A stretch of 44,708 nt of DNA from an uncultured Alphaproteobacteria bacterium (GTDB lineage Bacteria > Pseudomonadota > Alphaproteobacteria > Methylaequorales > Methylaequoraceae). A program made the translations under genes and the position numbers. How positions within the stretch are numbered: the first letter of the stretch is position 1; every line of letters begins with the position of its first letter. This document shows, one piece after another, positions 15,212 through 20,427 of this stretch. Location of the stretch: NCBI GenBank assembly GCA_902523675.1, contig CABZAL010000008.1, positions 1-44,708 of the forward strand, in the 5' to 3' direction. The notes below the pieces were generated by a model. That model was not told where the DNA came from. It saw only the letters and a list, made by a program, of their open reading frames with translations, and did not search any database.

Positions 15212-15240
15212 CTACTCCACAGTAACCGATTATATTTGAA
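15212..15240 (-). repeat. glmS 3'-end copy C (left island boundary)
   Basis: Read on the minus strand this encodes SVTVE-stop, as does the native glmS end. The core 15216-15231 matches the native site in 15 of 16 positions (TCCACAGTAACCGATT against TCCACGGTAACCGATT). It also resembles copy B beyond the glmS-coding part (TATTTGAAA against ATATTAGAAA). Upstream of SVTVE the frame is closed, so it is not a gene. Confidence 0.65.
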
Positions 15241-15523
15241 AGGTGAAAAACTCAAAGTATCTCACCTTTACTTAACATTCAGTATTTCTAAAAGATATAA
15301 TAACTTAACTAAAGACTTGTCTCAATGGACAACAAAACAAGAAGAAATTCATTCTTTAATTGAATCACTACAAGATAAAGGACTGGGTTATAGAAAAATA
15401 TCTCAGTACCTCAATTCAAAAAAAATAGAAACAAAAAGAAATACTACTTGGACTAATTCAAAAGTTCATTCTTATCTAAAAAAATATAAAGAAAGGATAA
15501 AAAGACAAAATTATAGAAATTAA
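15236..15523 (+). CDS. Small recombinase-domain-like DNA-binding protein
   Basis: A frame of 95 codons from a TTG; there is no internal Met, so the true start is uncertain and could be a later TTG/GTG. The C-terminal half (about residues 36-92) has the pattern of the recombinase domain found after the catalytic domain of large serine recombinases: a helix ending in KGLGYRKISQYLN, then SKKIETKRNTTWTNSKVHSYLKKYKERIKR (two helices joined by an R-T/G-x-x-W turn). No resolvase catalytic domain with its serine precedes it. It sits just inside the left end of the island and reads inward. A related ORF sits at the right end (18284-18496). A DNA-binding or recombination-accessory role is inferred. Confidence 0.5.
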   Translation: MKGEKLKVSHLYLTFSISKRYNNLTKDLSQWTTKQEEIHSLIESLQDKGLGYRKISQYLNSKKIETKRNTTWTNSKVHSYLKKYKERIKRQNYRN

Positions 15524-15570
15524 TTTTACGAAATGAAATGGGTTGGTAAAATGAAATTAAGGAATTTCTA

Positions 15571-16146
15571 ATGAAAAAATTATTACTAACATTTATTTGT
15601 TTGTTTGTGTTTTCTGAAACTAGGTCTAGTGAGGATACAATAGAGGGTAAAATGAATTGTGTTATCAAAGACCAAGTTGTAAAAGATATTGATGAGGGAA
15701 AAGTTTCAACTTTTAGCGGAATTAAAGGTGAATTATCAACTGGGGACTCATTTAAATTAAGTTATAAATTTATATTTCCTAGTTCTTTTGCTTTGAAAAC
15801 AAGTTTGCTTGGTGACATTGAAATGCTATTTAATTTAAAAGAAAGCACTTCTGTTTTTATAGAAAAAAAATATCAACTTATAGAGGCAATAAATAGACCA
15901 TATCAAGAAATATTTCTTCATCAAACACTTATCTTAAGAAGAAACAAATTTTCTGTTGGTTACATGGGAGAAACAATTTTTAAATTAAATAGATATTATA
16001 AAGGAGACTGGGAAGGAGCATTCATAAGTTTAACAAATTTAGCAGAACAACCCATACAATCTTGGAATTTATTTTTTGATTGCAAACATACTTCAACAGA
16101 TAACTATACAAAAGTTTTTGAATCTTTAATTAATTCAAAACCTTAG
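15571..16146 (+). CDS. Secreted protein of unknown function (island cargo)
   Basis: A 191-residue protein with a signal peptide (MKKLLLTFICLFVFSETRSS, cleavage near residue 19-20). The mature part starts with EDTIEGKMNCVIKDQ and ends with LFFDCKHTS, giving two widely separated Cys that could pair in the periplasm. In between, alternating strands (SFKLSYKFIFP, IEMLFNLKES, LILRRNKFSVGYMGETIFKLNRYYKG) suggest an all-beta domain. A weak AAGGAA lies about 10 nt upstream of the ATG. I do not recognise the family. Its signal-peptide DNA closely resembles those at 16221 and 18223, suggesting a family of island cargo genes sharing a leader. Confidence 0.6.
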   Translation: MKKLLLTFICLFVFSETRSSEDTIEGKMNCVIKDQVVKDIDEGKVSTFSGIKGELSTGDSFKLSYKFIFPSSFALKTSLLGDIEMLFNLKESTSVFIEKKYQLIEAINRPYQEIFLHQTLILRRNKFSVGYMGETIFKLNRYYKGDWEGAFISLTNLAEQPIQSWNLFFDCKHTSTDNYTKVFESLINSKP

Positions 16147-16214: not shown

Positions 16215-16220
16215 TCAATA

Positions 16221-16716
16221 ATGAACAAAATATTACTCATACTGATTTGTTTGTTTGTATCATCTTGTAGTGAAAATCAATCAGTTAAGTTTCTTAAATG
16301 TATTTTTTATGAGCATGAACACCATCCAGATATAAAAAGACTTTTTAGTTCCTTTTATTTAGACCAACAAAACGAATGGTTATATCTTTAGGATAAAAAT
16401 GAATGGTATGAGAAAAATAAAGAATTCAAAAATATTCAAACAAGTTTAACTCTGAAAGATGGTTATTACTCATTCATAATGAAACTTGAATCAAAAAATA
16501 ATTATAAAGACTAGGTTAATAAAGTTAAGTAAATCTTTTGACGAAATTGTTTATCAAAAGACTTTGAATTTATTTAATGAAAAAATTATAAAAAGAAAAG
16601 GTAGTTGTAAAGAAATCAATAAAATGGAATTTTATGTGAATTATAAACCTCAAGAAAAATCTATAAGTCATAAATACTTATACCCTCATTATAGTGAAAC
16701 ACCTTTGAAAAGATAA
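16221..16716 (+). pseudogene. Broken lipoprotein gene
   Basis: The ATG at 16221 opens with a lipoprotein signal (MNKILLILICLFVSSCSENQ; lipobox VSSC with Cys at residue 17). The frame is interrupted by TAG at 16389-16391 after 56 codons, stays open to a second TAG at 16512-16514, and then appears to continue in the +1 frame as KTRLIKLSKSFDEIVYQKTLNLFNEKIIKRKGSCKEI. The KGSCKEI-type ending would fit the terminal Cys of small exported proteins. Two in-frame stops plus a frameshift make this a decayed gene, unless the first 56 residues are still made. It lies between glmS-tail copies B and A. Confidence 0.5.
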
Positions 16717-16786: not shown

Positions 16787-16828
16787 CTATTCAACGGTCA
16801 AAAATTTAACAAGGTTTCTAGGTTGATC
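16787..16828 (-). repeat. Displaced glmS 3' end (copy A)
   Basis: Read on the minus strand this encodes DQPRNLVKFLTVE-stop, against DQPRNLAKSVTVE-stop at the native glmS end (18607-18648): 10 of 13 residues match. DNA identity is only about 28 of 42, and several differences are synonymous. That is what a once-functional or foreign glmS tail would show, not a recent direct copy. Upstream on the minus strand the reading frame does not continue as GlmS. Confidence 0.75.
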
Positions 16829-16858
16829 ATATTATCTAATTAAAATTTTAACAAGAAC

Positions 16859-17788
16859 TTATCCCTTAAACCCTGTCCAGTATTTCTTTACATAGTCCCT
16901 ATCTATGGAAATTTTAAGTTCTTCAATATGTTTACTTTTCACCTTTTTTTTAATTAATATTTTTAATAATTTTTTATTTCTTGAATTTAATTTATTAACC
17001 AAATCCTCATTTGGTAAACGATTACTTTTTGAACTGTTTTCTTCCGGTTTAACATATACAAGGTTCCACAAATCATCAGAATACATATATGACCAAGGTA
17101 TTATATGGTCTACTGAAGTTGTACCTGTTATCTTTTCCCCAGTTAAAAAACATATTTTTTTTGGATTCTCAAAATCTAAAAATTTATGAAATAACTTTAA
17201 ATTTCCCCTTTTTGGTGTTTTATCCCTTTCAACACCCCTTATCTTTTTGGATATTCTTGGTGAACCATCTGTTTCCTCAAGTTTTTGAGTCCATCTATAA
17301 TTAATTATTTGATAAAGAATCTCTGAATATTCTTTTAAAAACCTTGGGTTAGAAATTTTTATCTCTCTTTTTTGAATATTAGGTTTGTAGAAGTTAGAAA
17401 CCTTTTTTTCTAAAATCAAAAACCTTTCACAGACATCTTGAGTTAATACTTTACTTATTTTTTGTATAGGAATTTTAATTTTATTTTGAACTCTAATAAA
17501 CGATTCTGGTTTATAACCAAATTTTACTTGATAATCTCTAATACAATTCTCGACTATTTGAATAATTGTGGGTTTTTTATTTCTGTTTTGTCCCTGATTT
17601 AAATCAAAAAAAATACATTGATTCCAATAGTATTTAAAAATTAGAGGAGATAAATCATCAAAATGAATAATTTTTTTTGGTGACTCTTCACAAATTTCAA
17701 CTATTGATCTAATCCATGACATCTTATAAGTATTCTCCATAGATCCATTCATTATTAGATTTAAGAGTTCTTTTAGTTCAGTATTCAT
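16859..17788 (-). CDS. HNH endonuclease
   Basis: A 309-residue protein with a C-terminal HNH nuclease domain. D227-H228 in VDHIIPWS supplies the catalytic His and first metal ligand. W241-N242 in DDLWNLVYV gives the central Asn, and K254-x-N256 in SSKSNRLP closes the motif. A single Cys (C213 in CFLTGEKI) precedes it, with no full zinc-knuckle pairs visible. The N-terminal ~200 residues are helical and open with LLNLIMNGSMENTYKMSWIRSIVEI, a layout I associate with stand-alone restriction- or defence-type HNH proteins. The start codon overlaps the HIT gene stop by 4 nt (ATGA), so the two are translated together. The target is probably DNA. No methyltransferase is nearby. Confidence 0.82.
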   Translation of the reverse strand: MNTELKELLNLIMNGSMENTYKMSWIRSIVEICEESPKKIIHFDDLSPLIFKYYWNQCIFFDLNQGQNRNKKPTIIQIVENCIRDYQVKFGYKPESFIRVQNKIKIPIQKISKVLTQDVCERFLILEKKVSNFYKPNIQKREIKISNPRFLKEYSEILYQIINYRWTQKLEETDGSPRISKKIRGVERDKTPKRGNLKLFHKFLDFENPKKICFLTGEKITGTTSVDHIIPWSYMYSDDLWNLVYVKPEENSSKSNRLPNEDLVNKLNSRNKKLLKILIKKKVKSKHIEELKISIDRDYVKKYWTGFKG

Positions 17789-18153
17789 TTATATTTTTGT
17801 TTGTTTGGTATAACACATCTTATACCTCCCGTAGGATCATCAACATCCTTTGGGTATCTTGGAATAATGTGTATGTGTAAATGATCTACTGTTTGACCAC
17901 TTACTTTTCCACAATTTATACCTACATTAAATCCGGAAGGATTAAATTTTTCATCTAGATACTTCTTGGTTTTAAAAAGTAATTTATTTAACCCAATTAT
18001 TTCTTCCTCTGTTGAATCAAAATAATCTGAATATATTCTATTAGGAATAATCAGACAATGACCCCTACTCACAGGAAATTTATCAAAAATAACAAAACCT
18101 ACAGAGTTTTCAAAAATTCTTTCTCTGTTATCTAAAAATGGACTTTCAGACAT
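17785..18153 (-). CDS. HIT family hydrolase
   Basis: A 122-residue histidine-triad protein. The nucleotide-binding motif HLHIHIIPR puts the triad at H91, H93 and H95, and upstream blocks IFDKFPVSRGHCLIIPNR and GFNVGINCGKVSGQTVDH are typical. The C-terminal extension DVDDPTGGIRCVIPNKQKY marks a subfamily I recall beside or fused to nucleases and helicases in defence-like loci; that recollection was not checked. HIT enzymes hydrolyse or transfer nucleoside monophosphates (for example Ap4A or AMP adducts). The overlap with the HNH gene suggests a functional pair in which HIT makes or removes a nucleotide signal or adduct. The ATG lies inside a truncated secretory leader ORF (18146-18223). Confidence 0.85.
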   Translation of the reverse strand: MSESPFLDNRERIFENSVGFVIFDKFPVSRGHCLIIPNRIYSDYFDSTEEEIIGLNKLLFKTKKYLDEKFNPSGFNVGINCGKVSGQTVDHLHIHIIPRYPKDVDDPTGGIRCVIPNKQKYK

Positions 18154-18223
18154 TATAGGACTTCTCTATTTTCACTTCAAAAGAAACAAATAAACAAATC
18201 AATATCAGTAATAGTTTTTTCAT
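18146..18223 (-). pseudogene. Orphan secretory leader fragment (25 aa)
   Basis: On the minus strand an ATG at 18223 starts MKKLLLILICLFVSFEVKIEKSYNV and then stops, with the TGA 8 nt inside the HIT coding region. The first 13 residues and their DNA match the signal peptides at 15571 and 16221. It is probably the remains of a secreted-protein gene cut off when the HIT/HNH pair arrived. Alternatively it is now a translated leader that couples ribosomes to the HIT start. Confidence 0.45.
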
Positions 18224-18283
18224 TTAAAAAAAATCCATAACGATCCAAATATGAGAATATCTATTAAAATCACTTTTGTAAAA

Positions 18284-18496
18284 CTACTCATAAACCAACT
18301 CACCACTTGTTATTTCACCTAACTTACTTTTATTCTTTTCTAAATGTCTATTATATTTCTTTATTAACTCAAACACTAAACTTGGATAAAACTTTTTTCC
18401 TCTATAACTCAGTAGATTAATCTTATTAAAATAATGACTTATCATTTTATAAGTATGACCACATTCTCTAAAAAATATAATCTTATCAATCAACAT
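18284..18496 (-). CDS. Small recombinase-domain-like protein (70 aa)
   Basis: A 70-residue basic protein: IIFFRECGHTYKMISHYFNKINLLSYRGKKFYPSLVFELIKKYNRHLEK. It aligns with the C-terminal half of the protein at 15236-15523 (YRKISQYLN against YKMISHYFN, KxxxxxR turn, VxxxxKKY), the pattern of the recombinase domain of serine recombinases without a catalytic domain. It may be a DNA-binding accessory factor or a degraded recombinase. It lies just inside the right end of the island, 110 nt from the glmS stop, and reads inward, mirroring the left-end ORF. The start codon is an ATG at 18496; no strong ribosome binding site was seen. Confidence 0.45.
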   Translation of the reverse strand: MLIDKIIFFRECGHTYKMISHYFNKINLLSYRGKKFYPSLVFELIKKYNRHLEKNKSKLGEITSGELVYE

Positions 18497-18606: not shown

Positions 18607-18648
18607 TCATTCCACGGTAACCGATTTTGCCAAATTTCTTGGTTGGTC
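18607..18648 (-). repeat. Native glmS 3' end (presumed attachment site)
   Basis: The last 13 codons and stop of glmS (DQPRNLAKSVTVE). Related copies lie at 16787-16828, 16188-16214 and 15212-15240 in the same orientation. This is the functional copy and would be the attachment site if the island arrived by site-specific insertion. Tn7 is the classic user of glmS 3' ends, but it inserts downstream without duplicating coding sequence. Confidence 0.55.
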
Positions 18649-20427
18649 TACATCAGTACCCTTTGAGACAGCAACATAATACGCTAAAAGTTGAACGGGC
18701 AAACAATACACTATCGGAATTACAAAATTATGTGAATTCGGCAAAATTATTTTTTTAACATTTAAATTGGAAATTTTTTTTTCTCCTTTTTTATCAGTTA
18801 ATAAGAACACTTTTCCTCCTCTTGCTAAAATTTCTTGTGTGTTTGAGATATTTTTTTCAAACAATTCATCTGAGGGTGAAATTATAATAACTGGCATTAA
18901 TTCGTCAACTAACGCGATAGGACCATGTTTCATTTCTCCTGATGCATAACCTTCAGCATGTATATAAGAAATTTCCTTTAATTTAAGTGCTCCCTCTAAT
19001 GCAATTGGATAGCATGAACCTCTTCCTAAAAAAAGTGTACTTTTTGAATTTACTATTTCAGAGGATACGTCTTTAATTTTTTCAATTGAATTTAAAATTT
19101 CAGACATTTTGGAGGGTAATTCAATCAGACTTTTGGTAAGTTCTTCTTCAGTTTTTTGTGATATTACTTTTCTTGATCTTGAAATTACAATTGTCATACA
19201 TGCCAGAAGTGCTAGTTGGGCAGTTAATGCTTTCGTAGACGCAACTCCAATTTCAGGACCAGCAGATATTGGTAAACAAATGTCAACCTCTCTTGCAATA
19301 CTACTTTCTGCAACATTAACAATTCCTATAGTCTTTGATTTTTTTGATTTAACATGCCTTAGTGCTGCCAATGTGTCAGCTGTTTCACCTGATTGAGAAA
19401 TAAAAACTAAAACATGATCATCGTTTGTTATTAACTCTTTATATCTAAATTCTGAAGCTAATTCGGCAGAACAATCAACCTTTAGATATTTTTGCAACCA
19501 ATATGTAGCAGTTAAACAAGCATAATATGAAGTACCACAAGCAATCAGATTTATTTTTTTAATATTAGACCAATCAAAATTTAAGTCTGGTATGTTAATT
19601 TTTTTTTTGGAAGGATCAATAAATCTTAATAACGAATTACCAATAACTGATGGCTGTTCAAAAATTTCCTTTTGCATGTAGTGATTGAAATTTCCTTTGC
19701 CAATATTTGAACCTGAAGTTGAAATTACGGATGTTTTCCTTTCAACTTTTTTATTGTGCGAATTTATTACGAAATATGATTGATCCTCGACATAAACAAC
19801 ATCTCCTTCTTCTAAAAAACAAACATTTTGAGTAAAAGGTGCCAAGGCTAAAGAATCTGAACCTAAAAAAATTTTCTCATCTTTGAAACCAAATGCAAGT
19901 GGACTTCCTTTTCTAGCCCCTATTAGTACATTATAATCAGAAAATAAAACAGCAATAGCGAATGAGCCTTTTAACTGAGGGAGAGTTTTTTTTATTGACT
20001 CAAGTGGATCCAATCCTTCATTTAAAAAATCTGTTAATAAATTTGCTATTACTTCACTATCGGTTTGCGACTTAAAATTATGGCCTTTTTTACTGAGAGT
20101 TTTTTTTAGTATATCAAAGTTTTCAATTATACCATTATGAACTAATGCTACTTTTTCTGTAACATGTGGATGTGCATTAATCTCAGAAGGTACTCCATGT
20201 GTTGCCCAACGGGTATGACCTATTCCAATTTTGCCGTTAATTTTTTTTTTTTTTAAAATTTTTTTTAGGTTTTCTAGTTTGCCTTCGGCTCTAACACTAT
20301 TTATTCTTTGCTTATTAAAAACAGCTAAACCAGAAGAATCATAACCTCTGTACTCCAGTCTTGAAAGACCTTCTATAATATCATCTACGACTGAGTTAGT
20401 TCCAAAAACCCCAAATATTCCACACAT
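18607..20427 (-). CDS. glmS: Glutamine-fructose-6-phosphate aminotransferase
   Basis: Makes glucosamine-6-phosphate from fructose-6-phosphate and glutamine, the first step to UDP-GlcNAc for peptidoglycan and LPS. At 606 residues it is full length. The N-terminal Ntn glutaminase starts with the catalytic Cys (MCGIFGVFG) and includes YRGYDSSG, GHTRWATHG and NAHPH. The two SIS sugar-isomerase domains carry ACGTSYYA and FISQSGETADT, then GRGSCYPIALEGALKLKEISYIHAEGY with the Schiff-base region. The C-terminal tail is DQPRNLAKSVTVE. The ATG follows the glmU stop directly, so the two are translationally coupled. The 3' end acts as an integration target (see the repeats downstream). No glmS ribozyme was recognised. 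Confidence 0.97.
   Translation of the reverse strand: MCGIFGVFGTNSVVDDIIEGLSRLEYRGYDSSGLAVFNKQRINSVRAEGKLENLKKILKKKKINGKIGIGHTRWATHGVPSEINAHPHVTEKVALVHNGIIENFDILKKTLSKKGHNFKSQTDSEVIANLLTDFLNEGLDPLESIKKTLPQLKGSFAIAVLFSDYNVLIGARKGSPLAFGFKDEKIFLGSDSLALAPFTQNVCFLEEGDVVYVEDQSYFVINSHNKKVERKTSVISTSGSNIGKGNFNHYMQKEIFEQPSVIGNSLLRFIDPSKKKINIPDLNFDWSNIKKINLIACGTSYYACLTATYWLQKYLKVDCSAELASEFRYKELITNDDHVLVFISQSGETADTLAALRHVKSKKSKTIGIVNVAESSIAREVDICLPISAGPEIGVASTKALTAQLALLACMTIVISRSRKVISQKTEEELTKSLIELPSKMSEILNSIEKIKDVSSEIVNSKSTLFLGRGSCYPIALEGALKLKEISYIHAEGYASGEMKHGPIALVDELMPVIIISPSDELFEKNISNTQEILARGGKVFLLTDKKGEKKISNLNVKKIILPNSHNFVIPIVYCLPVQLLAYYVAVSKGTDVDQPRNLAKSVTVE

Follow-up and report, generated by a model that had tools for sequence, protein, structure and literature searches.

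A mobile HIT-HNH gene pair at the glmS site of marine bacteria as a candidate antiviral defence system

Introduction

When a nucleotide hydrolase and a nuclease are encoded by overlapping genes, the question arises whether the two proteins work together and, if so, to what end. One such pair is found in the window, i.e. the whole stretch of 44,708 nucleotides analysed here, which comes from an uncultured alphaproteobacterium. A HIT gene (17785-18153, 122 aa) and an HNH gene (16859-17788, 309 aa) lie on its minus strand and, according to their ORF coordinates, the HNH start falls within the HIT stop (ATGA, 17785-17788, minus strand), as an earlier note on this DNA had read them. The same note suggested a two-gene defence or mobile module. 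The mobile part of that suggestion is borne out by pairing across phyla, by an exact cassette and by identical copies, and for the defence part the evidence comes from gene neighbourhood. Judged from sequence, HIT-HNH is most likely a candidate antiviral defence system, of a kind that has had no name so far.

The locus and its two proteins

The glmS gene (18607-20427, minus strand) is directly followed on its 3′ side by a small ORF, HIT and HNH, and its 3′ end (18607-18651, minus strand; VDQPRNLAKSVTVE and the stop) is the insertion point of the cargo. In a sister genome (G028), whose glmS is 98% identical, the segment 15561-18603 is replaced by an unrelated 0.94 kb carrying a GIY-YIG gene, with the breakpoint on the glmS side, as determined by blastn, at most a few bases away from the glmS stop. 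At this sister site (L055:9062-9952) the other nuclease is a GIY-YIG protein of 297 aa (E 4.5e-6). Within the variable segment HIT and HNH are the sole genes with a clear enzymatic match in Pfam, which agrees with the earlier description of them as the only clearly enzymatic genes in the island; genes for a Ni-SOD and an S24-like peptidase lie just outside it. Small ORFs that resemble a serine-recombinase-type HTH recur at the borders of variable segments, namely at 15236-15523 (plus strand) and 18284-18496 (minus strand) in the window, at L056:9350-9679 and at L010:14300-14686. The first of these (95 aa, at the distal end) is significant in Pfam (PF07508, 27.3 bits, cut-off 21.1), and the other three were judged by eye. 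The ORF at 18284-18496 (70 aa), which lies between glmS and HIT, is weakly recombinase-HTH-like (Pfam Recombinase, E 0.16, not significant), and its membership is uncertain.

The HIT protein matches PF01230 (Pfam, E 1.7e-20), and the proposed triad H91/H93/H95 is intact and unchanged in 9 homologues, which gives it both the H-x-H-x-H motif and the fold that define the HIT superfamily. Its long tail (GG[IV]RxVIPxK) is conserved in the form D-x3-P-x-GG-[IV]-R-x-VIP-x-K. The association of this tail with nuclease or helicase neighbours, drawn in the earlier note, had to be given up as too general: in a reverse search, with HIT as the query, the seven best plasmid matches include four that adjoin an HNH of this superfamily, i.e. 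about half, the other three having none beside them.

The HNH protein combines an N-terminal domain of about 200 aa, for which no relative is known, with a C-terminal HNH domain of the Cas9 type. The latter matches PF13395 (HNH_4) with E 1.4e-10 and 41.4 bits against a cut-off of 22, and has the catalytic D-H/N residues of an HNH_4 nuclease. D227, H228, N242, N251 and N256 (codons within 17021-17110, minus strand) are invariant in 23 homologues; the first three had already been named in the earlier note, whereas K254, named alongside them, is not conserved, being Met in Pelagibacteraceae. In the PDB, it is the C-terminal part alone that is matched, by Cas9 HNH domains (E 1e-5 to 1e-7). For the first 200 or so residues there is no sequence match in Pfam, NCBIfam or the PDB and, in an AF2 model of the protein (mean pLDDT 84), no fold match to this part among PDB or viral folds. 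A phage origin of HNH is not supported, given that viral contigs hold no close relative and phage records gave one partial match only. Compared with the three nearest kin, HIT has a dN/dS of 0.03-0.06 and HNH one of 0.11-0.13; both genes are thus under purifying selection (0.03-0.13) and neither is a chance ORF.

Recurrence of the pair and its defence neighbours

A search with the HNH query over 84,980 species genomes returned 26 loci with 37-89% identity, spread over Pseudomonadota, Thermodesulfobacteriota, Bacteroidota, Bacillota and Mycoplasmatota. HIT immediately precedes HNH in three genomes of SAR86, in one of Pelagibacteraceae, among the alphaproteobacterial kin and in Acholeplasmataceae/Erysipelotrichaceae, with the two genes overlapping by 1 base in the SAR86, Pelagibacteraceae and Acholeplasmataceae kin. 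It is directly downstream, with an overlap of 11-14 bp, in three distant HNH (29-34% identity), which were retrieved with the HNH query alone. Among the plasmid pairs reached from the HIT side, HIT comes first in Polaromonas and Aromatoleum, and HNH in Hymenobacter and Persicobacter. Pairs occur in three classes of proteobacteria (alpha, beta and gamma) as well as in Bacteroidota and Mycoplasmatota/Bacillota, and either gene may come first. In the HNH tree (the deep branches of which are long and of unsure order) HIT partners occupy four separate branches, three with HIT first and one with HIT last. The pairing is real and recurrent, and its occurrence across several phyla excludes that it is confined to this clade, an outcome that the earlier note would have counted against its reading.

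The HNH family is rare. Counting the seeds, it is present at high identity in four of the 32 genomes of the window's family, a fifth genome having a distant member, in 1 of the 40 SAR86-family genomes and in 4/398, 1/395 and 1/398 genomes of the phylum samples (about 1% or less). Several close kin (L008, L010, L011, L012) have an HNH with neither HIT nor a MazG-like gene (see below) adjacent, so that such a partner is either not strictly required or acts from elsewhere. In two Pelagibacteraceae loci (L012, L014) an HNH without HIT lies 3′ of an rpoD-like sigma-factor gene, which is perhaps a second cargo site.

Relatives of HNH adjoin a number of known defence genes. These include Druantia DruE1 (L025, E 0), a PtuA-like ATPase (PDC-M01) accompanied by an HNH gene (L109), BREX genes (L113), McrBC together with type I RM (L115) and DUF4007 genes (L112, L114). 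Another relative (L122) adjoins a gene in whose translation a DGQHR motif was read by eye. A DpnI_C+T5orf172 nuclease (PDC-S57) is the third gene in L022 and also follows HNH in L024. In these Acholeplasmataceae (L022:8842-16572, and L024) HIT-HNH and the DpnI_C+T5orf172 protein are succeeded by a 1600-aa DpdF-like + UvrD-like double helicase, a set that is possibly a larger defence operon. These are individual cases, collected locus by locus, and since most of the defence-linked relatives are without HIT, what they link to defence is the nuclease superfamily. Around the pair in the marine genomes there are small cargo genes of unknown function, and no known defence gene is adjacent. On the strength of the neighbours, a role of HIT-HNH in defence appears rather probable.

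Exchange of the partner and the proposed mechanism

In Clostridia, Bacilli and Paenibacillus a MazG-like NTP pyrophosphohydrolase is found in place of HIT, either upstream (L015-L018, L020, L026) or downstream of HNH (L110, L111, L122). Two of these genes were scanned, the one in L110 being PRA-PH by Pfam and the one in L015 not, and the remaining ones were assigned via their 40-49% identity to the genes of L110 or L015. Two further loci have a methyltransferase downstream instead. While the MazG-like/PRA-PH protein stands next to HNH in Bacillota just where HIT stands here, its fold is unrelated to that of HIT and it can be a functional equivalent at most.

This exchange bears on the two mechanisms that the earlier note had offered, namely signal-gated nuclease activity and the removal of AMP adducts during DNA end processing. 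Given that HIT and MazG both hydrolyse a small nucleotide, control by a ligand is, by inference, favoured over repair of DNA ends; AMP-adduct removal is weakened by a MazG-like enzyme replacing HIT in other branches, and a signal-gated nuclease is preferred. In this preferred reading the HNH protein would be a DNA-cutting effector, with cleavage by its C-terminal Cas9-type HNH domain, and its conserved N-terminal domain would sense or bind the trigger. The nuclease would be under the control of a small nucleotide (adenylated nucleotide or dinucleotide) for which HIT would be the hydrolase; by removing this activator, HIT would hold the nuclease inactive as long as the cell is healthy, or reset it, a job that the MazG-like enzyme may do in other branches. 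The translational overlap would balance the two proteins. No signal synthase is present, a point against this reading. The exchange of HIT and MazG beside one nuclease offers a way to test directly for nucleotide gating that has no cyclase of its own. Taken as a whole, defence with gating by HIT, the latter suggested by the identity and the exchange of the partner, is put forward tentatively and is about as likely to be wrong as right.

Two alternatives have to be weighed against the same evidence. An overlapping two-gene unit on mobile DNA, which forms a compact cassette and has its partner in either order, is also what would be expected of a toxin-antitoxin-like system, where HNH would be a DNA-damaging toxin, HIT or MazG would neutralise it by removing a nucleotide modification or ligand, and the benefit would lie in maintenance of the cassette and not in phage defence. 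Such a system is unlikely, because in close kin HNH often has no partner next to it, a condition that would not be expected of a toxin, because the partner class switches between HIT and MazG, and because the relatives adjoin defence systems. Somewhat less probable still is a stand-alone restriction-like HNH, possibly modification-dependent, whose HIT would be a repair helper removing the 5′-AMP of abortive ligation in the manner of aprataxin. HIT belongs to the superfamily that includes aprataxin, and HNH relatives are located near restriction genes, with the DpnI_C/T5orf172 gene after HNH in L022/L024 as a further point of agreement; but the MazG-like class that replaces HIT elsewhere has, to our knowledge, no activity on DNA 5′-AMP, and the PDB matches of HIT, the best ones included, are spread over the Hint, Fhit and Ap4A phosphorylase types, aprataxin not having been compared separately.

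Mobility at the glmS site

Within the window's own family the unit of exchange (16859-18224, minus strand) spans 1366 bp from the HNH stop codon to a leader repeat and is about 90% identical in the loci compared by blastn (L056, L058, L059). The leader repeat, 45 bp long, begins with ATGAAAAAACTATTACTGATATTGATTTGTTT, encodes the signal-peptide-like MKKLLLILICLFVS and is vestigial before HIT (18180-18224, minus strand), where it matches at 43/45 positions against a shuffled maximum of 32. A second copy (15569-15613, plus strand, 39/45) stands at the start of the ORF 15571-16146 and a third one (16219-16263, plus strand, 38/45) at the start of the ORF 16221-16391; scrambled windows never match these scores. 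The repeat opens unrelated cargo genes in the window and in several relatives from several genera (L060, L068, L069), and in two related loci (L004 of G020, L003 of G031) another copy begins at most some 15 bp after the HNH stop. Near-exact copies are few per genome (the window's own has three), and most of the relatives searched have none. Another genome has five copies within 2.3 kb (G030:C2:112713-115040), on a contig other than its glmS contig. We infer that genes could be exchanged by recombination at such repeats.

Traces of the glmS 3′ end are also present. Shortly after the HNH stop there is a degenerate copy of the glmS tail (16787-16831, minus strand; YDQPRNLVKFLTVE and the stop), which is recognised by its retained reading frame and not by DNA identity to the local tail: its translation retains DQPRNL, K and TVE with the stop, and it agrees in 33/45 bases with the glmS tail of another genome (G025), as against 28/45 for the local tail, which is not significant (shuffled maximum 29). 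A distal copy of the tail core (15212-15232, minus strand; AATCGGTTACTGTGGAGTAG) has 1 mismatch to the degenerate core and is found at the same site in the sister genome (L055:8697-8717).

The most exact case comes from SAR86, where the HIT+HNH cassettes of two loci (L005, L007) agree in 1375/1375 bases, whereas identity is 68% in the glmS genes beside them and the DNA downstream is different. The inserted unit consists of exactly HIT+HNH and lies at the 3′ end of glmS, flanked by copies of the tail of that gene. Although both genomes share a plate prefix (AG-337), contamination is argued against by the junctions with two different chromosomes. The borders of this unit are formed by glmS-tail copies (GTYACNGTNGARTRR) and inverted ends (TTGGTTGTACC / GGTACAACCAA), and many SAR86 loci have one to three such cassettes in tandem 3′ of glmS, bounded by tail copies. 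Ends belong to individual cassettes: pairing within a cassette has a mean score of 11 versus 5.7 between different cassettes, and 15 of the 22 cassettes score at least 9, compared with 5% of control pairs. Tandem cassettes with their own inverted ends can be seen, for example, in the 3′ flanks (1.5 kb) of glmS in L082, L100, L103 and L105. No integrase was seen beside the SAR86 cassettes, the flanks covering 1.5 kb for most loci. HIT-HNH moves as a unit between divergent hosts, and it is very probably a real, mobile and functionally coupled module.

Movement of this kind might also be that of a selfish homing element, in which HNH would cut empty glmS 3′ sites, the cassette would spread by recombination and HIT would be a passenger. 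HNH copies are indeed located on the 3′ side of glmS in alphaproteobacteria, SAR86, Thermodesulfobacteriota and Flavobacteriales, and an identical cassette is shared by divergent SAR86, but homing is improbable, since the same cassette ends enclose other cargo without HNH (L095), HNH relatives occur at unrelated sites (rpoD, plasmids, Clostridia), and the SAR86 glmS 3′ site is a general cargo site whose content differs in nearly every species. A pair with an accessory part in metabolism or DNA repair, and none in conflict, might be proposed on the grounds that HIT proteins are often housekeeping enzymes and that the marine genomes have no known defence gene adjacent; it is very improbable for a unit that is rare, patchy (1/40 SAR86-family genomes, 1/398 in a phylum sample) and horizontally transferred.

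SAR86, Pelagibacteraceae and related small-genome alphaproteobacteria are abundant in the ocean, and their immune repertoire is poorly known. If the preferred reading of a gated defence nuclease were confirmed, these bacteria would possess in HIT-HNH a defence system of minimal size (1.4 kb). In its widest form, this reading would make the widespread HNH superfamily, with its shared and structurally uncharacterised N-terminal domain, a nucleotide-gated immune effector with an interchangeable control enzyme (HIT or MazG-like), which in streamlined marine bacteria would take the form of a minimal cassette and be passed on by integron-like exchange at glmS, with cassette-specific inverted ends and an integrase acting in trans. 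This wide form is speculative and, on balance, doubtful.

Comparison with known systems

In agreement with the earlier note, no named system of exactly this composition is found in PADLOC, NCBIfam, PHROGs or the literature, and nothing on point was found in the literature on HIT+HNH, on glmS islands in SAR11 or on SAR86 cassettes. When the pair is run through PADLOC, the only similarities are those of HNH to Cas9 and of HIT to ThsC, the latter being partial (E 6.8e-9, 69 residues) and possibly a general HIT similarity. ThsC of Thoeris ('Thoeris type II' in PADLOC) is a HIT protein, for which the authors propose an action on a nucleotide messenger (PMC8565338). The likeness to Thoeris would consist in a HIT protein as a defence accessory. 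However, neither ThsA nor ThsB, with their NAD-binding and TIR domains, is present here: HIT is partnered by an HNH nuclease, and its neighbours are HNH, the small ORF and glmS. With Septu (PtuA ATPase and PtuB HNH) the pair shares the two-gene layout and an HNH protein as the effector, here a presumed one, but the unit contains no ATPase, and HNH does not match PtuB models, its matches being to Cas9 models only. The HNH domain of Cas9 itself is similar in its C-terminal HNH_4 match, its D-H...N...N arrangement and the best PDB matches, whereas the present protein, at 309 aa, has HNH only, with no RuvC, guide or CRISPR features, 200 N-terminal residues unrelated to solved structures, and 25.8 bits to the NCBIfam Cas9 model against a cut-off of 100, which sets it apart from type II CRISPR.

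Because the insertion is at glmS, Tn7-like elements were also considered; no tns-like gene was recognised among the ORFs inspected, and the repeats are 15-bp copies of the glmS tail, not a 5-bp target duplication. Integron gene cassettes, CALINs and additive genomic islands (e.g. PMC10872708) likewise consist of small cargo units that follow one another at a single site, every unit having its end repeat. In SAR86, however, the cassette core follows the glmS tail (GTYACNGTNGARTRR), so that integron cassettes were rejected on core sequence (GTYACNG vs GTTRRRY), and inverted ends are present at both cassette borders, with no integrase seen next to the cassettes. Thoeris, Septu, Cas9, Tn7 and integrons are therefore excluded as classes by their membership criteria. 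The SAR86 cassette arrays, while lacking the integron core and any integrase seen to adjoin them, have an integron-like architecture and, if this is confirmed, the arrays at glmS would provide an integron-like route for swaps of small genes in streamlined marine bacteria.
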